Origin: a virus
DNA length: 25,569 nt
IMG/VR virus record: IMGVR_UViG_3300042303_001034
Coordinates: 1 to 25,569 of that record
Direction: 5' to 3' (one strand)
The notes under the pieces were generated by a model, which saw only the letters and a program-made list of their open reading frames with translations, was not told the origin of the DNA and ran no database searches. Each line of letters begins with the position of its first letter. The first letter of the stretch is position 1. The translations under genes and the position numbers were made by a program. This document shows, in pieces, positions 6,577 through 25,569 of this stretch.

Positions 6577-6894
6577 ATGATTGCAAAGACCTTCAGCGCA
6601 CTGTCGCCAGCACAACAACGAATCACCAAGCGCATGCGTGAAATGGGATTCGGAAAGATCCGAGACATCTCGATTATCAATGGAGAACCAATCCTAAAGG
6701 GAGCCACCATCACCACACGTCACAAACTGACAAAGCCGGAAACAATGTTCAAATTCAAGGGTGACTTTGAATTACGTACAGAACACCTCGAGTTGTTCCG
6801 AACGATCAATGAGATCCAGAATGGCATCATCGCTTGCTTGGAAGTGCAGCATGGTTTGCCCTGTCACCTCGAGATCGACGACAAAGACAATTAA
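6577..6894 (+). CDS. Conserved small phage-type protein
   Basis: A 105-residue protein. The segment KRMREMGFGKIRDISIINGEP is followed by a short linker and by VQHGLPCHLEI near the end. This two-part layout (FGxI-x-x-(I/V)-x-(I/V)-x-(N/G)GEP and then (V/Q)xHGLP) resembles a short conserved protein seen in phage-like islands. Its function is not known to me. There is no strong ribosome site; AAAGAG lies about 10 bases upstream. It lies between the LexA-like gene and the sigma-like pair and is probably part of the early operon. Confidence 0.65.
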   Translation: MIAKTFSALSPAQQRITKRMREMGFGKIRDISIINGEPILKGATITTRHKLTKPETMFKFKGDFELRTEHLELFRTINEIQNGIIACLEVQHGLPCHLEIDDKDN

Positions 6895-7069
6895 TCACAC
6901 CCTAGTTCATTAACGAATTAAACGCGCCAGACATACTGCCGACCGCGAAGCGGAAGCACTTGTGGGCCTGCTGAAGCCCTCGTCATTGATAAGTCGGGAA
7001 TTTCTCCTGCAAGGCTCTGACGAGGAAGTGACAAAACAGTCCTCCATTCTATTCGCGGAGTCATTTTCT

Positions 7070-7660
7070 ATGCTAGTTCCAAGAAATGTACCCATCGTTG
7101 ATGAGGTAGCACTTCGGTCCATACACGTTAGTGTAAATGCGTTCATCCGGAAGTTTAACCATCCAATTGTAGATCGAGACGATCTCATTCAAGACGTCGC
7201 TCTGCACCTCATTCAGCAAGCGGAGAACTTTAACCCGACTGTTGGCGCATGGTCCACATTCGTGAAGTGCGTCATTCGGAGCAAACTCGCGTCGATTCGG
7301 AGAGCGTCCAAGACAAAGAAGAACCGAAAGTTCACAAGGACGGTTTCGCTAAACGAAAAGACACGAGACCAAGATGGTCGTACTGCCGAGTTTGGATCAC
7401 TAGTTGAGGAAGGGGAATCAACTTCAAGGAAGCTCAGAAAGATTCGGTCTACCCAATCCCACAGCGAACTGAAGTTAGATGTCCACATAGTGGTCCGCAA
7501 GCTCAAGCCAGAGTTACGAGCGATTTGCAGGGAATTTCTATCCGAGCGCAATATCACCGAGGCATCAGAAGAGCTCGAGCAAGCGCGAGAAACGACTTAT
7601 CGTCGCATTAAGCGGATTCATGAGACGATGACCGAGTATGAAATTCATCAGTATCTGTAG
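7070..7660 (+). CDS. Sigma-70-like protein, first of a pair
   Basis: A 196-residue protein resembling a short sigma-70 family factor. Residues about 12-85 look like region 2, with the diagnostic VDRDDLIQDVALHLIQQAEN followed by FNPTVGAWSTFVKCVIRSKL. A basic linker (SKTKKNRKFTR) follows. Residues 143-195 look like region 4, an HTH with ELRAICREFLSERNITEASE and ARETTYRRIKRI. The ATG at 7070 has GCGGAG nine bases upstream; a GTG at 6962 in the same frame would add 36 residues that are not sigma-like. It would direct RNA polymerase to element promoters or act as an anti-repressor-like regulator; which is inference. A second related gene follows 91 bases later. Confidence 0.75.
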   Translation: MLVPRNVPIVDEVALRSIHVSVNAFIRKFNHPIVDRDDLIQDVALHLIQQAENFNPTVGAWSTFVKCVIRSKLASIRRASKTKKNRKFTRTVSLNEKTRDQDGRTAEFGSLVEEGESTSRKLRKIRSTQSHSELKLDVHIVVRKLKPELRAICREFLSERNITEASEELEQARETTYRRIKRIHETMTEYEIHQYL

Positions 7661-7751
7661 GACTTTCTGATTCCGTCCGCAGTCGGATGGATCAAGTCAC
7701 TCTCTTCCACGGCATAGTCACCTTCCCACACACATTTGACGGAGCGTTTTC

Positions 7752-8378
7752 GTGCGCAAATTTTTAACAGTTGAGATCGGTCGGACCCCAGAGGAAACAT
7801 TCGACCCAAGCAAAGATTCATTTACAAAGGCACTGATCAATCGCAAAGTGAACATGCTGATCGAGCGCCTCGGATTCAGATATCACGAGCGTGACGATTT
7901 AAAGCAAGATCTCCTAGCTCGAGTCATTAAAAGCCTGGAAAGTTACGACGCGAGCATTGGAAATCCCTATCCATTCATTACCGCCGTCGTGGATCGTCAA
8001 GTTTCCAACATCTTGCGAGACCGAAACGCGGACAAGCGCTGCAGCGGCGAGATGGTGAGTCTAAACGTCAACATCATGAATGAGGATGCAGGCCCAACCG
8101 AACTGCTCCAAACGATCAGCGATCGAGAAGTCGACCGACGCCTTGGACGCGAGCGCACGTTGAGCGAAGAACAATTGAACGATCTTAAATCCGATATGGG
8201 GAACGTGATCAAACGATTGCCAAAACGACTTCAAGATTTTCTGGAGCTTAAGAAAACACTAAGCCTAAATGAAATCGTGAATGAACTCGGCGTTCCTAGA
8301 TCGACGCTTGGAGATTGGATGAATGAGATCCGCGTTCACTTTGAAGAAGCCGGTCTCGAAAAATATTTCCTCAAATAG
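7752..8378 (+). CDS. Sigma-70-like protein, second of a pair
   Basis: A 208-residue protein with the same layout as the gene before it. Region 2 (about 22-95) includes HERDDLKQDLLARVIKSLES, then YDASIGNPYPFITAVVDRQV and the basic LRDRNADKR. Region 4 (about 150-205) includes KRLPKRLQDFLELKKTLSLN, NELGVPRSTLGDWMNEI and the final EEAGLEKYFLK. The start is a GTG at 7752 with GGAG seven bases upstream. The two proteins share about the same length and motif order, so they are probably paralogues from an old duplication. Both look intact. A role in switching element transcription is inferred. Confidence 0.78.
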   Translation: MRKFLTVEIGRTPEETFDPSKDSFTKALINRKVNMLIERLGFRYHERDDLKQDLLARVIKSLESYDASIGNPYPFITAVVDRQVSNILRDRNADKRCSGEMVSLNVNIMNEDAGPTELLQTISDREVDRRLGRERTLSEEQLNDLKSDMGNVIKRLPKRLQDFLELKKTLSLNEIVNELGVPRSTLGDWMNEIRVHFEEAGLEKYFLK

Positions 8379-11423: not shown

Positions 11424-11714
11424 TTACTTTCGTTGATTCCATGTCTCATGAGGAACACTTGAATGAACAAGCCCCAACACGACAATTCACTCAAACACAT
11501 AGCTCAAGATATACGGAAACTGTCGAATTGGGACTGGTCGAACCTTTCCGTATGTCGACGCATAGAGCTCTGGAAACTGTTTGATTCGATCAATACTTTC
11601 TGTCACCGAGTCACGGGCATCATCGCCAAGTTCTTCCGAGATAGAGCCATAGAACTCGTGCATCCCTCGAATCTCGACTTCAGCTTCGGGGCGAATAATT
11701 ACTGGATAGCTCAT
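11424..11714 (-). pseudogene. RelE/ParE-type toxin with in-frame stop
   Basis: The ATG at 11714 overlaps the antitoxin stop (ATGA). The first 75 codons encode a RelE/ParE-superfamily toxin: SYPVIIRPEAEVEIRGMHEF, then a helix ending in ESIDRIKQFPELYAS, then RPVPIRQFPYILSYVFE. There a TGA (11487-11489) stops translation. Reading on in the same frame gives IVVLGLVHSSVPHETWNQRK and a TAA at 11424-11426. This is exactly the missing last strand and tail of the family (compare the usual VLGVVHSSRHPETW). The full frame of about 96 codons equals the normal family length, so a single nonsense mutation is the simplest reading. The last strand carries active-site or core residues in this fold, so the 75-residue product is probably inactive. 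A sequencing error must be ruled out. Confidence 0.8.
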
Positions 11715-11926
11715 TGCTTTTTGAACAGTTCCGCCTTCACTTCCTCCCAAGGTCGACCTTCCGTTGGGTCAGCCTCGTACTTGGCTAGCCGTTCATCAAG
11801 TATTCGGCGGTGTTCCTCAGAAAGCTCAATTTCGTTCGGTTGAATGGAATCCCAGATTTGAGCCGCCAATTCCATCCGCTGTGAAACGGGTAGGGCAAGT
11901 ATCTCAGGAGGTAGGGAGGTTGGCAT
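11711..11926 (-). CDS. Antitoxin of the addiction-module component family
   Basis: A 71-residue protein like the TIGR02574 / PF09720 antitoxins that pair with RelE/ParE toxins. The hallmarks are LALPVSQRMELAAQIWDSI in the N-terminal half and HRRILDERLAKYEADPTEG followed by PWEEVKAEL at the end. The ATG at 11926 is preferred over a TTG at 11932; there is no strong ribosome site. Antitoxins of this class bind the toxin with the C-terminus and the operator with the N-terminus. The pair sits against the flow of the early operon, between DUF669 and rusA, as an inserted cassette. With its toxin broken it may now be an orphan. Confidence 0.85.
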   Translation of the reverse strand: MPTSLPPEILALPVSQRMELAAQIWDSIQPNEIELSEEHRRILDERLAKYEADPTEGRPWEEVKAELFKKQ

Positions 11927-11990
11927 CGTCAAGACTCGCTAATCGTTGGGAAATTTGTGTGACGAATAAATTATACAACAAGGAAGGGCC

Positions 11991-15928: not shown

Positions 15929-17332
15929 ATGGACATACAACTTTTCACGTTTGACCAAATTAAGCCATACGAAAACAACCCTCGCATCAACGATGACGCT
16001 GTCGATGCAGTTGCAGCATCGATCCGCGAGTTTGGATTTTCCCAGCCGATTGTTGTCGATAGCGATCATGTGATCATCGTCGGCCATACGCGATTGAAGG
16101 CAGCTAAGAAGCTTGGCCTCGAACGTGTACCGGTTTTAGTGGCTTCGCATTTGACGCCCGATCAAGTCCGGGCGTATCGTATTGCTGACAACCGGTCGGC
16201 AGAAATTGCCGAATGGAACTATGACCTGCTGCCGATTGAGATCGAAGCACTCAAGGAAGCCAACTACGATCTTGGGTTGCTCGGCTTCGACGCGGAAGAG
16301 CTGGCCAAGATCATGGGGAACGGAATCGAGGAAGGGCTGACCGATCCCGATGATGTTCCGCTGCCCCCGGACGAAGCGATCACGCAACCAGGCGACCTGT
16401 GGATACTTGGGAACCATCGGTTGCTCTGTGGAGACTCTTCGAATCCAGAACATCTCGATCGATTACTCGCTGGCAAGCCGATTCATCTTGTGAACACAGA
16501 CCCGCCGTACAACGTCAAGGTAGAACCACGGAGCAAGAATGCCATTGCGGCTGGCTTGAGTTCATTTACCAATGATGCAGCATCATCGAAACTAAAAAAC
16601 GATCAAGGCATGGCAGCGTTCACGCATGCGATTAATCAAAAGAACAAGTCCAAGGCCGGCGCGTCGGCAACTGCGACCATCGACGCATCAAAGCAGAAAA
16701 TGCGAGCCAAGGATCGACCGCTTGCAAATGATTTCGTCTCGGACGACGAGTTCGATCGTTTGCTCGATGCATGGTTCGGAAACATTGCACGCGTGCTTGT
16801 CCCTGGCGGCTGCTTCTACATCTGGGGTGGCTACGCCAATTGCGGCAACTATCCACCGTTCCTGAAGAAGCACGGCTTGTACTTCAGCCAAGCGATCATC
16901 TGGAACAAGATGCATCCGGTTTTGACACGTAAAGATTTTATGGGCGCTCACGAGTGGGCGTTCTATGGATGGAACGAAGGTGCCGGCCACAAGTACTATG
17001 GGCCGAACAACGAAACCGATTTGTGGAATGTTAAGAAGATCCCGCCACAACAACTCGAGCATCTCACTGGCAAGCCTGCCGAGCTCGCGGTTCGATCAAT
17101 TCAGTACTCGTCGCTCCCTGGCCAGAACGTACTCGATCTTTTCGGTGGTAGCGGATCAACCATGATCGGCGCTGAGCAAACGGGACGCAATGCGTTCTTA
17201 ATGGAACTCGATTGTCCATACGCAGACGTAATCGTTGATCGGTACCAAAGGTTTACCGGCAAGCAAGCGATTCTCGAGCGAACTGGTGAGTCACCGATTC
17301 CGATGAAGCCTCGTGAGGAGAACATGCGGTGA
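15929..17332 (+). CDS. ParB-domain DNA methyltransferase (beta class)
   Basis: A 467-residue protein. Residues about 8-100 are a ParB/sulfiredoxin-like domain with PYENNPRINDDAVDAVAASI, FSQPIVVDSDHVIIVGHTR and YRIADNRSAE. The rest is an N4/N6 methyltransferase of the DNA methylase family. The catalytic motif is DPPY (191-194), and the S-adenosylmethionine motif FGGSG comes later (405-409). This order, catalytic before cofactor motif, marks the beta class and leaves about 200 residues between them for target recognition. It likely methylates adenine or cytosine N4 in element DNA, against host restriction or for regulation. No matching endonuclease gene is seen. An AGGA about 11 bases upstream precedes the ATG. 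Confidence 0.93.
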   Translation: MDIQLFTFDQIKPYENNPRINDDAVDAVAASIREFGFSQPIVVDSDHVIIVGHTRLKAAKKLGLERVPVLVASHLTPDQVRAYRIADNRSAEIAEWNYDLLPIEIEALKEANYDLGLLGFDAEELAKIMGNGIEEGLTDPDDVPLPPDEAITQPGDLWILGNHRLLCGDSSNPEHLDRLLAGKPIHLVNTDPPYNVKVEPRSKNAIAAGLSSFTNDAASSKLKNDQGMAAFTHAINQKNKSKAGASATATIDASKQKMRAKDRPLANDFVSDDEFDRLLDAWFGNIARVLVPGGCFYIWGGYANCGNYPPFLKKHGLYFSQAIIWNKMHPVLTRKDFMGAHEWAFYGWNEGAGHKYYGPNNETDLWNVKKIPPQQLEHLTGKPAELAVRSIQYSSLPGQNVLDLFGGSGSTMIGAEQTGRNAFLMELDCPYADVIVDRYQRFTGKQAILERTGESPIPMKPREENMR

Positions 17333-19763: not shown

Positions 19764-19796
19764 GCATGTTTGGGCCTCGGTGGCGTCCAAACATGC
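19764..19796. repeat. Perfect 10-bp-arm palindrome before the packaging genes
   Basis: GCATGTTTGG (19764-19773) and CCAAACATGC (19787-19796) are exact inverted copies with a 13-base spacer. Direct copies of ATCGCAT flank them (19761-19767 and 19797-19803). The site lies in the 263-bp gap between the minus-strand operon and the divergent packaging genes, 91 bases before the first of them. It could be an operator, a terminase recognition site or a mRNA hairpin. A 72-codon frame (19676-19894) crosses it but has no ribosome site. Confidence 0.7.
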
Positions 19797-19886
19797 ATCG
19801 CATAACAAGGCGAACATGCAAACAAAACGCGACTGTGGCGAACGTGTCGCAACCGGTGGCAATTCAACGCATCATGGAGGAATGGG

Positions 19887-20093
19887 ATGAGTGAAGGCAA
19901 CAACCAGGTCGACCCAACGCGACTTTCCATCGAGCAGGCATCGAAGCTGCTCTCGGCCGCATATCGCGAGAGGATTGATGCATCGAAACTCCAGGACGAT
20001 ATTGATTCCGGCGCACCAACCAATGCCGACGGAACGATCAACCTTGTGAACTATTCCGCCTGGCAAGCAGAGGAGATGGGACGTGGCGATTGA
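19887..20093 (+). CDS. Stand-alone paralogue of the terminase N-terminal domain
   Basis: A 68-residue protein with GGAGG six bases before its ATG. The pattern LSIEQASKLLSAAYRERIDA, then ASKLQDDIDSG, and at the end DGTINLVNYSAW lines up with LRPSELCRLLNST, SERQLYRHRQRAG and DGKTVDLLRYCAW in the next protein. The family looks like a small HTH-type DNA-binding domain. Its end overlaps the terminase start by ten bases. A small-terminase-like role in recognising element DNA is the best guess, by position and similarity; it is much shorter than usual small terminases. Confidence 0.72.
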   Translation: MSEGNNQVDPTRLSIEQASKLLSAAYRERIDASKLQDDIDSGAPTNADGTINLVNYSAWQAEEMGRGD

Positions 20094-22353
20094 TCCTAGA
20101 AAGCTTCGACCAAGTGAATTATGTCGTTTGCTGAACTCGACGCCGTTGGGCGAAGTCATAAGCGAACGGCAGCTATATCGGCACCGCCAACGTGCCGGCA
20201 ATCGTATTGGCGATGGCAAGACAGTCGACTTGTTGCGATACTGTGCTTGGATGCATGTGGTGCGACATACGCCAAAGCCAATATCGGATGTGGATCCGTA
20301 TGAACGTATGAAAGAATCGGCTCGCGCTCGCAACGCTGCACTTGCTCTAGCCGGTAGAGACATCGGGGAGCTACCCGCTGTGGAGAATCCAGATCGCAAG
20401 GAGAGGGCTTCGCGTGATTTTCAGTACTTCTGTGAAGCGTATTTTCCGTTGACGTTTCATTTGAAGTGGTCTCCGGATCACCTGAAGGTTATCGGTAAGA
20501 TCGAACAAGCGATCATCCATGGAGGACTGTTTGCACTTGCTATGAGTAGAGGGTCTGGCAAGTCGAGTTTGGCGGAAACAGCTTGCATTTGGGCGATGCT
20601 TTTTGGACATAGGGACTTCATTTGCCTCATCGGCAGCGACGAAGGTCACGCCTGTGACATGCTCGAATCGATCAAGACCGAGCTCGATAGCAACGATTTA
20701 CTATTGGCCGACTTTCCTGAAGTCTGCTATCCAATCCAGGCTCTCGATGGAATCTCGAATCGTGCCAACGGCCAGTTATTCAAAGGCAGCCGTACTCATA
20801 TCGGTTGGACGGCAAAGGAGATCGTGCTGCCGACTATCGCAGACAGTCCAGCCAGCGGGGCGATCATCAAAGTGGCAGGTATCACTGGTCGTATTCGCGG
20901 TATGAAGTATAAAAAAAGCGATGGCCAATCTGTTCGCCCGGCGCTTGTTGTACTCGACGATCCGCAAACAGATGATTCTGCGCGTTCGCTTTCACAATGC
21001 GCAAATCGTGAAAGTATCCTTGCCGGTGCCGTACTTGGTCTTGCTGGACCAGGTAAGAAGATATCAGGCATCATGCCTTGCACCGTAATCCGACCAGGTG
21101 ATATGGCAGACAACATTCTCGATCGAGATAAGCATCCCGAATGGAATGGCGAACGGACTCGAATGGTCTATGCGTTTCCAACGAATGAATCTCTATGGCA
21201 ACGCTACGCCGAGATTCGAGCCGAGGGGTTGCGAAACGGTGATGGTGGAACCTCTGCCACTGAATTCTATCGCCAAAATAAAGAGGCGATGGACGAAGGC
21301 TCGAGGATTGGTTGGCCGGAGCGATTCAACTATGACGAACTGTCCGCCATCCAGCACGCAATGAATCTGAAGCTCCAAGACGAGGCAGCGTTTTTTGCTG
21401 AATACCAAAACGAACCGTTGCCAACGAAGGTCGCGGCCGAAGGAGTTCTCTCAGCTGACGAGATCACTCGCAAAATCAACCGCATGGAGCGAGGCGTGCT
21501 ATCGATCGGCTGCAACCATCTAACCGCCTTCGTAGATATCCAACAGAAGTTGCTTTACTACATGGTTGTCGGTTGGGAAGATGATTTTACTGGGTACATA
21601 GTCGACTACGGAACGTACCCAGATCAGAAGCGATCGTATTTCACTCTGCGAGACGCGAGGCTAACGCTTACTACGTCTGCAGAGGGAACCGGACTGGAAG
21701 GATCGATCTATTCAGGCTTGAATTCTTTGACATCGGATTTGCTCGATCGAGAGTGGGTCCGAGATGACGGAGCAGCCATGAAGATTAGCCGTTGCTTGAT
21801 CGATGCCAACTGGGGCCATTCGACCGATGTGGTCTATCAATTCTGTCGCCAGTCGAAACACTCAGCGATTGTTATGCCAAGCCACGGACGATTTGTGGGT
21901 GCCTCGAGTATGCCGTTTAGCGAATACAAACGCCGACCGGGCGACCGAGTTGGATTGAACTGGCGCATACCAAGCGTTCACGGTAAGCGAGCTATACGGC
22001 ACGTGATCTACGACACGAATTGGTGGAAGTCTTTTATTTACGCACGACTTGCAGTCGCTATAGGTGATCGAGGTTGCCTTTCACTATTTGGCAACAATCC
22101 CGAGCCGCATCGAATGCTCTCGGAACAACTAACCGCGGAATACTACGTCAAGACGGAAGGCCGCGGCCGGACAGTGGATGAGTGGAAATCTCGACCCGAC
22201 CAGCCAGACAACCACTGGCTGGACTGCCTTGTGGGAGCAGCGATGGCCGCATCCATGCAAGGATGTGTGCTGTTTGGAACGGATGGCGGTCGGAGCGTCA
22301 AACGAAATGATCGTGTTAGCTTCAAAGAGCTTCAAAAGAGGCGAAAATCGTGA
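20083..22353 (+). CDS. Large terminase with N-terminal HTH-like domain
   Basis: A 756-residue phage DNA-packaging motor. Residues 1-60 are an extra HTH-like domain (RKLRPSELCRLLN through DGKTVDLLRYCAW). The ATPase domain has Walker A SRGSGKSS (155-162) and Walker B LVVLDD (288-293). The nuclease domain has Asp485 in TAFVDIQQK, Asp574 in CLIDANWGHS and Asp709 or Asp714 in DNHWLDCLVGAA, the usual three acidic residues. The start is a GTG with GGAG seven bases upstream. The protein is longer than typical large terminases (450-600), mainly through the N-terminal domain and inserts. It looks functional, but no portal or capsid gene follows. Confidence 0.92.
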   Translation: MAIDPRKLRPSELCRLLNSTPLGEVISERQLYRHRQRAGNRIGDGKTVDLLRYCAWMHVVRHTPKPISDVDPYERMKESARARNAALALAGRDIGELPAVENPDRKERASRDFQYFCEAYFPLTFHLKWSPDHLKVIGKIEQAIIHGGLFALAMSRGSGKSSLAETACIWAMLFGHRDFICLIGSDEGHACDMLESIKTELDSNDLLLADFPEVCYPIQALDGISNRANGQLFKGSRTHIGWTAKEIVLPTIADSPASGAIIKVAGITGRIRGMKYKKSDGQSVRPALVVLDDPQTDDSARSLSQCANRESILAGAVLGLAGPGKKISGIMPCTVIRPGDMADNILDRDKHPEWNGERTRMVYAFPTNESLWQRYAEIRAEGLRNGDGGTSATEFYRQNKEAMDEGSRIGWPERFNYDELSAIQHAMNLKLQDEAAFFAEYQNEPLPTKVAAEGVLSADEITRKINRMERGVLSIGCNHLTAFVDIQQKLLYYMVVGWEDDFTGYIVDYGTYPDQKRSYFTLRDARLTLTTSAEGTGLEGSIYSGLNSLTSDLLDREWVRDDGAAMKISRCLIDANWGHSTDVVYQFCRQSKHSAIVMPSHGRFVGASSMPFSEYKRRPGDRVGLNWRIPSVHGKRAIRHVIYDTNWWKSFIYARLAVAIGDRGCLSLFGNNPEPHRMLSEQLTAEYYVKTEGRGRTVDEWKSRPDQPDNHWLDCLVGAAMAASMQGCVLFGTDGGRSVKRNDRVSFKELQKRRKS

Positions 22354-22488
22354 TTGCCACAAAAGTGCCCATTTGGATTCTAAGCCGGGCTTTGATGCCT
22401 AACCATCGAACTGCATTTTGTGTTTTTGACTAAATCGTCTGAATCCCTTTCGGCGATCCGGCGTGCCAACAACGTGCCGACCCGGTGC

Positions 22489-22508
22489 GCGTTAGTTTTG
22501 GCTAACGC
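22489..22508. repeat. 7-bp-arm hairpin after the terminase
   Basis: GCGTTAG (22489-22495) and CTAACGC (22502-22508) are exact inverted copies around the loop TTTTGG. No T-run follows on either strand, so it is not a classical terminator. It could be part of an attachment site or a mRNA end. Confidence 0.55.
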
Positions 22509-22696
22509 AGTCAGAACTACGACACTACCAAAGAGCCAGGAGCAGATTGCGGAGTGGTTTTCTTACTTCGGTTAAAATCGGCAGCCGTGACAGTTTTTCC
22601 AGCTGACTCAACATCGACTTTGACTTCAAGGGCTTTGAACTTTCGGAAAGCGCTTCGGATCCCTCGCTGCTAATATCCGGTGGTCGCACCACAGGT

Positions 22697-22717
22697 GACT
22701 TGCGTAAGTGGCAAGTC
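22697..22717. repeat. 7-bp-arm hairpin near the leucine-rich-repeat gene end
   Basis: GACTTGC (22697-22703) and GCAAGTC (22711-22717) are exact inverted copies with a 7-base loop. It lies nine bases past the stop codon of the minus-strand leucine-rich-repeat gene, so it may protect or end its mRNA, although no T-run is present. Confidence 0.5.
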
Positions 22718-22725
22718 GTGCAAGC

Positions 22726-25569
22726 TCATTGTGCGATTTTCCATTTTCGTTCTAGACGCAATCGGACTACCTCGGATGGTGTAATGCGATTTGATTCAAC
22801 ACTCAGCTTGGTAGAATGACCAATCGCAAGAATTGCAGGAATAGACGCGTCGGTCAATTTGTTCAGTCCTAAGTCTAGCGATTTGAGCTGCTTAGTTTCG
22901 AGTGATGAAATGGCCTCGTCCTCTAAACCACAATTGTTAAGATTCAACCACTGTAGTTGTTTCAGACGATTAAGCGGCGAGAGGTCTTGGGTCTTAAACA
23001 CGCTTCCGTCCAACACCAAAGACTCAATCGCTTCATGGCGGCCGATCCAATCGAGTAGTTCCGGGGTAACCATTACCTCTGGCAAGGAGAGGCTTGTTAG
23101 CTGTGGAACGGTTGGCAGTTGCTCGGGTAACTCCGTCAGCTCCACTTTTTTGAACGGATTCATGAAATGATTAATATTGTTAAGAAACATCAGTCTTCTG
23201 AGTTTAGGCATAGTCGACGCAACTTCAAGCAAACTTCGCAAATCGACACCAACCTTCACGGTCAACATCGTGATCCCTGGATGTCCTCGCAACACTTCCA
23301 TGCGTTCTGCTGTCCAGGTGTGAGGTTCTAACCATAGCTCTGAAACAGTCGCTTCGACACGATTGGAACGATGGACCAACAAGTCGTTTCTGTAGATACT
23401 TATTCCATCGACATCAAGATGTTGAAGCCGTGGCAAGTTCAATGTTTCAAGCACTTCACCAACAGTTAAATTTGTTTCTGTCAGGCACAAAGAGTCCAAA
23501 CGCACCAACGAATTTAGACTCTTGAGATCTACTCTCGTAAGTGATGCATTCTCAATTTTCAATGACCTTAGCCTATCTCCCATTTCAACGATTAGAGCAA
23601 TCGATTCGCTATTAACCAAGGGGCCTCCTATCGCCAGGTTATCCAAGTCGGGTAACTTTACGAGTCGCGCGAGGCCATGATTCGATATTTTTGTTCCGGA
23701 AATATCCAACTCCTGAATTCGAACTGCCTGGGATACTATGCCAACAGCTTTGTCGGTGACAGGCTTATTGCGAATTCTAAGTTTCCTTGATTCGGACAGC
23801 CAATGGAGCTGAAACTGTTCATCCCTTATCTGCATCCTTTCGAAGTCGAATGCAGGATCGAAATACTCATCTAAAACAAATTCCTTGCCGGGAGTATCTA
23901 AATCTTGGGCAACAACGGTAGTTGGCGCGTTCTTGGAGACAATGTCGTTGGCCGGTTCATCGTTGACCGTTGGGGGAAACTCAGTCATTGAAGTACACTC
24001 GAGAGCTGGCGTGAATGACGGCCCGTTTAAAAGGTCCATCGTCGCTTTACTTGCGTAGCAATCTTTTAAAATGAGTTTTGCAAGCGATTGACTCTGCATT
24101 AGCGATTGGGCTCCAGCTTCTGTAATGAGTGTTCCTTCCATTTCGATGCAGATGATATTTGGTAACAACGCGATTTCATGGAGGGTCTCCTGGCTCAATT
24201 CACAACCACCAACCTTAATTCGCGTCAGTGTAGATAAAGATTGGGCAATTGTTGGTGACAAGGGGAAGCCAAGAATTGAGAGTTCTTGAAGATTCTTGAG
24301 GGATGCTAAAGATTGAATTCCCTCATTGGTCAACCGTGTATTGCTTAGATCGAGGCTATTCAAACTTTCGATGCGGACGATGTCCCTTAGATCTTCATCA
24401 GTTATATCCGTATTCTGCAAACTGAGTTGCTTCAGTCCTTGAAGAAGTGCTGCATGTTTCCATTGTCCAGAAACATCGTAGACGGAACCGCAAAGAAGCC
24501 TTGTTGGCATTGCGTCTCTTCCAGCCCGACCACCAAGACGAGTCAGAGTCTCTCGGTTAAAGTCGGATTCCGCGGGCACGACATGCTTTTGAACGCCGAG
24601 AAATTTTGGTAGCTTGGCAAGTTCTATGAGTCCCGCCAACGGTAGCTTGCAACTGCAACGATCGTTCCCCAAGAGAAGTATCCTGGAATTGCAATGATCG
24701 ATCCATTGGAGCGATGGAACTGATTTCAATGACGCTACTAAGTGACGAAGACTGGGTTGGTCTAAGCAGCCGATTTTCACCGCCTTTAAATGCTTCAAAC
24801 TCGAGATTCCAATAAAAAAATCGGTAGAATCTGGATCGTTTGTAAAACCGATTTGTTCAAGTCTCCTTAATGAGGACAAGTGCGCCAACGCTGAATCGTC
24901 CAAGCCACGCGTTGGGAAAACGAGTGAATTTAGGTTTCGGAATTGTGAGAAAGCAAATATGGCCTCCGTTGAAATTGAGTTATTGGGAAGATCAAGCTCA
25001 AGACTCTGAAGATTTGGAAGGTTTCGTAGTCGCTTGAAGCCGTCTGCAGCAATTGGCACCGCTGAATAATGACGAATTGTGAGATCCTTCAACGACTGGC
25101 ATCCGGATATAACATCCAAAGTCTCGACGTGTATTGGGCAGAAACTAATCTGGACGTGCTTGATTCGTCGATGAGATCCAACCGATGCAATCATGAGATC
25201 GATATCACTACAGTCTTCGATAACTAAGGCTTGCATTTTAGACGGCAATTGAAGTGGGGCCGAGTCCAGCCATCTGCAATTATCGAACATAATTCTCTTT
25301 AACTTCGGGACTCTACCTAGCCATTCCAGATCTTGGTTGTCAACTTCAGCATTTTGAAAACGAATCTCCTCCAGATAAGGAAGTTGGTAAAGATGTTTCT
25401 GCAGTGAACGAGGAATTCGTTCTTCGTATGCTGGTACTATTTCGATTCGTATAACACGCTTGAACAGATGCCCTTCATTCAGTTGCAGAACCGATTCTGG
25501 CAGCCAACTCAACCAAAACGAAGGTTCTTCAAATTCCCACTGAACCATTTGTGCGTTGTAACGTGGCAT
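22726..25569 (-). CDS. Leucine-rich-repeat protein, N-terminus off window
   Basis: The 947 codons in the window encode a leucine-rich-repeat protein of the planctomycete type. Repeats such as LRNLPNLQSLELDLPNNSIS, SLNSLDLSNTRLTNEGIQSL and LKQLQWLNLNNCGLEDEAIS recur about every 23-26 residues. Two repeat blocks, roughly residues 55-510 and 600-940, are separated by a charged linker containing TVVAQDLDTPGKEF. The frame is still open at the right edge, and the ATG at 25569 is the last codon of the window, so a longer N-terminus, in homologues often a membrane helix, is probably cut off. Such proteins usually mediate protein binding; no target can be named. It converges on the terminase and is probably a host gene or cargo at the element's edge. 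Confidence 0.85.
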   Translation of the reverse strand: MPRYNAQMVQWEFEEPSFWLSWLPESVLQLNEGHLFKRVIRIEIVPAYEERIPRSLQKHLYQLPYLEEIRFQNAEVDNQDLEWLGRVPKLKRIMFDNCRWLDSAPLQLPSKMQALVIEDCSDIDLMIASVGSHRRIKHVQISFCPIHVETLDVISGCQSLKDLTIRHYSAVPIAADGFKRLRNLPNLQSLELDLPNNSISTEAIFAFSQFRNLNSLVFPTRGLDDSALAHLSSLRRLEQIGFTNDPDSTDFFIGISSLKHLKAVKIGCLDQPSLRHLVASLKSVPSLQWIDHCNSRILLLGNDRCSCKLPLAGLIELAKLPKFLGVQKHVVPAESDFNRETLTRLGGRAGRDAMPTRLLCGSVYDVSGQWKHAALLQGLKQLSLQNTDITDEDLRDIVRIESLNSLDLSNTRLTNEGIQSLASLKNLQELSILGFPLSPTIAQSLSTLTRIKVGGCELSQETLHEIALLPNIICIEMEGTLITEAGAQSLMQSQSLAKLILKDCYASKATMDLLNGPSFTPALECTSMTEFPPTVNDEPANDIVSKNAPTTVVAQDLDTPGKEFVLDEYFDPAFDFERMQIRDEQFQLHWLSESRKLRIRNKPVTDKAVGIVSQAVRIQELDISGTKISNHGLARLVKLPDLDNLAIGGPLVNSESIALIVEMGDRLRSLKIENASLTRVDLKSLNSLVRLDSLCLTETNLTVGEVLETLNLPRLQHLDVDGISIYRNDLLVHRSNRVEATVSELWLEPHTWTAERMEVLRGHPGITMLTVKVGVDLRSLLEVASTMPKLRRLMFLNNINHFMNPFKKVELTELPEQLPTVPQLTSLSLPEVMVTPELLDWIGRHEAIESLVLDGSVFKTQDLSPLNRLKQLQWLNLNNCGLEDEAISSLETKQLKSLDLGLNKLTDASIPAILAIGHSTKLSVESNRITPSEVVRLRLERKWKIAQ

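Follow-up and report, generated by a model that had tools for sequence, protein, structure and literature searches.

A small domain shared by the large terminase of planctomycete prophages and the protein encoded directly upstream of it

Results

Gene organization at the terminase locus

The window, the whole stretch of DNA analyzed here, is a virus record of 25,569 bases. Each of its ends falls on the start codon of a flanking gene, and the record is therefore probably that of a provirus trimmed to gene boundaries. The features discussed below are the following.

19789-19833, plus strand: conserved non-coding DNA block (AAACATGC ... GCATAAC.AGGCGAACATGC ... AACGCGAC), from the upstream alignment of close relatives
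19887-20093, plus strand: small gene with ATG start, encoding a one-domain protein of 68 residues in the small-terminase (TerS) position (the free copy, S)
20083-22353, plus strand: large terminase gene (TerL) with GTG start, 756 residues
20083-20274, plus strand: TerL residues 1-64, the fused sister domain (T), basic and winged helix-turn-helix (wHTH)-like; hhalign to the S family, E 9e-9
20296-20364, plus strand: TerL residues 72-94, predicted long linker helix from the domain to the motor (AlphaFold2 model)
20383-21432, plus strand: TerL residues ~101-450, packaging ATPase (phrog_38 over 77-447; D3112 TerL)
21445-22263, plus strand: TerL residues 455-727, lambda gpA-type endonuclease (Pfam GpA_nuclease; phrog_15 over 457-727)

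Both open frames stand where a sequence-only reading of this DNA had placed them, at 19887-20093 and 20083-22353. A GGAGG at 19876-19880 precedes the ATG of the small gene, and the GTG of TerL at 20083 sits inside the small gene, an overlap of 11 nt that is the same in most relatives. The small gene is present with TerL in essentially all of 80 terminase relatives and is under purifying selection (pN 0.07-0.37 versus pS 0.50-0.79). Conservation and purifying selection establish it as a real gene.

Behind T and the linker helix, whose modelled confidence falls towards its end, the ATPase aligns with the TerL of the Mu-like phage D3112 (hhalign 99.7%), and the nuclease matches GpA_nuclease (PF20454) with an E-value of 2.2e-27, passing the cut-off. 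A gpA-type ATPase was not found in TerL by Pfam family search, and the hhalign match with gpA is confined to the nuclease half. With a D3112-like ATPase half and a lambda gpA-type nuclease half, TerL (20383-22263) looks mosaic.

Intact relatives share the order small gene, TerL, conserved short ORF, portal (lambda family) and protease/capsid fusion. The short ORF (L035:8324-8560 and equivalents, GPAKASGDAGSVEQH...RGLRFNKLVPP) takes the place of lambda gpW and has no NCBIfam match. It is absent behind TerL in the window, where 22353-25569 holds neither portal nor capsid genes; a leucine-rich-repeat-like gene on the minus strand follows TerL, and the record ends at its start codon. Since the gap between TerL and portal reaches 4-6 kb in several relatives (L037, L039, L057, L103, L120), the broken order of the window probably reflects a cargo site or a truncated record and not a special design. 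Elsewhere in the window we noted a ParB-N domain fused to an N6/N4 DNA methyltransferase (15929-17332), two adjacent sigma-70 region-2 proteins in the prophage early region (6962-8378) and, by eye, a ParE-like toxin with an addiction-module antitoxin on the minus strand (11487-11932), inside a replication operon on the plus strand.

Homology of the free and the fused domain

The likeness between the small protein and the terminase front had been proposed from the letters of this one locus, and it holds up at the level of families. Viral contigs yielded 80 terminase relatives, and bacterial genomes, mostly planctomycete MAGs, yielded 52 relatives of the small protein; we built family alignments of 71 small proteins (A1) and 43 terminase N-termini (A2). 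Compared with hhalign, the two profiles match with a probability of 95.7% and an E-value of 9e-9 over 60 columns, which is the whole domain. Pairwise local alignment joins S residues 8-59 to TerL residues 3-56 with a score of 47; when the small protein was shuffled 5000 times, 2 of the shuffles scored as high. Judged by sequence, the pairwise alignment alone is suggestive and the family profiles are clear. The borders first proposed for the terminase copy, residues 8-56, were too narrow, the homologous stretch lying nearer residues 2-64. The final motif is likewise shared, although not with identical spacing: it reads DG-xxx-L-xx-Y-x-AW in S and DG-xxxx-L-xx-Y-x-AW in the terminase, so that the alignment needs a one-residue gap.

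The small-protein profile alone also matches the TerL N-terminus directly downstream in other genomes (E 1e-5 to 1e-3), and distant family members match in both directions. The sequence-only reading had suggested a profile search for the domain in other planctomycete terminases. Across 294 genomes the small-protein HMM does match the TerL N-terminus, always directly downstream. Searches of Pfam, PHROGs, NCBIfam and PDB sequences with single proteins and whole families returned no credible match to S or T, and among 50,697 phage records tblastn with the small protein gave chance matches only. The small family did match TrwC (E 0.008), but only in part, and this was set aside.

Predicted fold

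Structure prediction of both segments gave confident AlphaFold2 models of the same topology (pLDDT 86.6 for S and 84.7 for T), with the order short strand, helix, helix, short strand, helix. S is modelled as a single three-helix domain of 68 residues. The best PDB match of this model in a second look was the excisionase (Xis) of mycobacteriophage Pukovnik (Z 5.5, 49 residues, rmsd 2.7), followed by Rex, RacA and Tn916 Xis; among viral structure models, excisionase, AlpA and HTH proteins matched weakly. Foldseek yielded no match at E<0.001 for the small protein, and neither S nor T has a credible match to a Pfam HTH family. The order beta-helix-turn-helix-wing-helix fits both models. The structural matches are weak; a winged HTH of the Xis/MerR/AlpA kind is the likely identity of the domain.

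Distribution, pairing and phylogeny

The small protein occurs in 24 of 294 planctomycete genomes drawn across the phylum. By coordinates, S adjoins T in 40 of 41 terminase-domain matches (E<=1e-6) in these 294 genomes, and the lone T without a neighbouring S (G284) is a partial match; the pairing of the two genes is near obligate. Several S/T loci per genome are common, with up to six matches to the small-protein profile, some of which are the terminase domain itself. The pair belongs to a widespread planctomycete prophage family.

In a FastTree phylogeny of 54 free and 61 fused domains, a single deep split divides S from T, with a support of 1.0 and a long branch. So clean a split points to one ancient separation and not to repeated copying. 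On this phylogeny, S and T are ancient paralogues that have been kept together.

In some relatives the small gene and TerL are set apart by a cassette of ~600-800 nt, which indicates that close coupling is not essential. In L003, L029, L082 and L090 the inserts measure about 700-800 nt and lie on the minus strand; by eye they resemble toxin-antitoxin modules, with a PIN-like protein and a short partner, and both flanking genes stay intact.

In genome G192 (L242:6659-7226), a diverged S and T stand as two adjacent free genes. No terminase core was found in the 16 kb around this pair, whose neighbours include a serine recombinase, an AlpA-like gene and a tyrosine-recombinase-like gene. Also nearby is a protein that by eye is the protease/capsid fusion of this planctomycete phage family. 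The motorless pair may be a product of decay, or else a recognition pair used without a motor of its own.

Charge of the two copies

T is basic throughout, with a net charge of +3 to +7 over TerL residues 1-64 and +2 to +5 in the second helix. S is usually acidic (-7 to 0; second helix -4 to 0), although not universally so, since values in distant branches rise as high as +4. Over a broader sample of 39 loci, T carries the more positive charge in 37; of the other two, one has equal charges and one is the motorless pair of G192 (S +2, T 0). Reference HTH regions carry 0 (lambda Nu1 1-55), 0 (D3112 protein 1-55) and +3 (P2 gpP 12-69); since a neutral charge is normal in known TerS HTHs, the charge of S does not by itself rule out that it binds DNA. 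The main DNA contact would nevertheless be better placed in T. What had been described as a duplicated DNA-recognition domain is thus one domain in a fused and a free copy; that both copies bind DNA fits poorly with a free copy that is usually acidic and has a non-basic second helix.

The small-terminase position and the upstream block

Does S replace a conventional small terminase, as had been surmised? The Pfam families Terminase_2, Nu1 and Terminase_4 have no match in 19 related records (34-107 kb), all of which encode S; this absence covers three Pfam families and leaves room for a TerS of an unrecognized kind. PF07471 (Phage_Nu1) matches neither the window protein nor family members nor the 19 records. 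S is encoded directly upstream of TerL, where TerS is expected. The surmise is supported to the extent that no known small-terminase family was found elsewhere in these records. In build S departs from a conventional TerS, a protein of 15-21 kDa with an HTH, an oligomerisation core and a TerL-binding tail (PMC9611059), since S has 68 residues and a single domain. It apparently stands in place of the usual small terminase subunit.

The conserved block at 19789-19833 lies at about -98 to -54 relative to the small gene and contains two copies of ACATGC as direct repeats. It is a candidate packaging site of the cosB/pac type and could equally be a promoter or operator that controls the late operon. 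An ORF in the block was rejected, since its frame, read by eye, is interrupted in several relatives.

Discussion

Why would a terminase carry at its front the sister of the protein encoded just before it? In P22, TerS is bound by the first ~58 residues of TerL (PMC9611059). The wHTH of lambda TerS dimerises and can also take up the Rpp proteins of satellites, themselves wHTHs, as heterodimer partners (PMC9026076). With the front of TerL being the sister of S, and with these precedents from P22 and from lambda and Rpp, the simplest mechanism is the docking of S on T. Our preferred reading, to which we assign a rough probability of 0.45, is a lambda-like terminase in reduced form, where S, a one-domain protein of the TerS type, would pair with a homologous DNA-binding domain in the motor; the source element would then be a temperate planctomycete phage with a two-chain terminase. 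S would do the job of TerS by pairing with T and not as a ring-forming subunit. It would dock as wHTH on wHTH, and the pair would recognize the packaging start, the fused copy contacting DNA near that start, perhaps at the conserved block just upstream. One TerL and one S would make up a two-wHTH unit, which lambda makes from two Nu1 N-terminal domains on one gpA. A more tentative extension makes S and T an obligate heterodimer in place of the TerS ring; one half of the recognizer would be part of the motor chain and S would provide the other, with recognition and motor loading coupled 1:1. If this were true, the motorless L242 pair (around 6659-7226) would be the same recognition unit, used alone by a reduced element.

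Other assignments of S have to be weighed against a two-chain terminase. In the sequence-only reading both copies recognize DNA; S would then be a minimal TerS that binds the packaging site alone, and T would bind a second site. The TerS position and gene overlap of S, the Xis-like fold match of the free copy and the direct repeats in the upstream block all speak for this; nonetheless, the usual acidity of S and its non-basic second helix argue against it, as do its 68 residues, which leave no room for the known TerS oligomerisation core and TerL-binding tail (PMC9611059), and we consider it rather doubtful. Could S instead have left packaging altogether? As an Xis/AlpA-like regulator of the late operon or of excision, it would be a descendant of the terminase domain with no packaging role left. 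Near-obligate adjacency to TerL across the phylum and the conserved overlap better suit a terminase partner than a mobile regulator, and make this unlikely, even though excisionases and small HTH regulators head the fold matches and the motorless, diverged S and T of one genome lie close to recombinase and AlpA-like genes.

TerS proteins diverge until they are no longer recognizable, and with three Pfam families searched the true TerS might be an unrecognized gene elsewhere in the prophage, both small domains being accessory; in P2, too, TerL bears an HTH and TerS is encoded apart from it, at another position. We find this improbable, as the usual TerS position directly upstream of TerL is taken by S in 19 of 19 records. 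Finally, the domain might not be a winged HTH at all and instead be an EF-hand-like helix-loop-helix pair, a protein-protein module. EF-hands are the top PDB matches of Foldseek, and the loop TNADGTI resembles the centre of an EF-loop. All of these matches, however, have E>0.1 and were judged generic helix-loop-helix similarity. For the small protein, the second look gave EF-hands a Z of 4.3 or less versus 5.5 for Xis, and the first and twelfth ligand positions of an EF-loop are, by inspection, not acidic in the window sequence. It is the most improbable of these assignments, with hardly any weight left to it.

How DNA passes from TerS to TerL during packaging is poorly understood. If S and T pair as the two-chain terminase reading holds, a one-domain recognizer with its sister in the motor would be a compact hand-over system and would show trading of domains between TerS and TerL. 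The profile also provides a handle on the packaging genes of many, largely uncultured planctomycete prophages that PHROGs, Pfam and NCBIfam leave unnamed.

How does this arrangement compare with known terminases? That motor and recognizer in one chain would be an unusual packaging design, as had been claimed, is only partly right. P2 gpP, a textbook large terminase, already has an HTH at the front of the motor (residues 12-69, PF06056), a region that also matches small-terminase profiles; what is unusual here is the pairing of a fused with a free sister. The gpP HTH is of a different family from T, PF06056 matching neither the window TerL nor 43 relatives, with P2 gpP matching as positive control. 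P2 moreover encodes its TerS (gpM) separately, downstream of the capsid gene, and we know of no free sister of the gpP HTH domain in P2.

With lambda gpNu1/gpA the locus shares the order TerS-TerL-W-portal (nu1-A-W-B-C), an overlap of the first two genes (26 nt for nu1/A, 11 nt here) and a gpA-type nuclease in TerL; the N-terminus of Nu1 is moreover a dimerising wHTH (PMC9026076). The candidate block, were it a packaging site, would sit by the small gene as cosB does beside nu1. It differs in that Nu1 has 181 residues with oligomerisation and TerL-binding parts, against the 68 of S, and in an ATPase that is not gpA-like. By hhalign Nu1 has no detectable match to S or T, a weak test of a single sequence against a shallow profile. 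The Mu-like TerL of D3112 resembles the one described here in the ATPase half, but has no N-terminal domain of the T kind and no gpA nuclease match. The TerLs closest in the ATPase, those of D3112 and Helicobacter phage, have only ~40-60 residues ahead of it and a separate HTH protein upstream, in D3112 one of 166 residues (DUF1804).

The Rpp proteins of satellites (Gram-negative PICIs) are small wHTH proteins that heterodimerise with a terminase wHTH (PMC9026076), as S may do with T. Rpp, however, is a satellite protein of 139-154 residues that redirects the terminase of a helper; here the small gene is the phage's own and the putative wHTH lies within TerL. Gp1 of RcGTA is likewise a short TerS-like protein beside TerL, its TerS role split from sequence-specific DNA recognition (PMC6854486). 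It keeps the coiled coil without the HTH, whereas here the HTH-like domain alone is kept. An HTH at the N-terminus of TerL was thus already known from P2 gpP; new are a domain family unrelated to that HTH, a free sister of the fused domain, and a protein in the TerS position that is cut down to this one domain.
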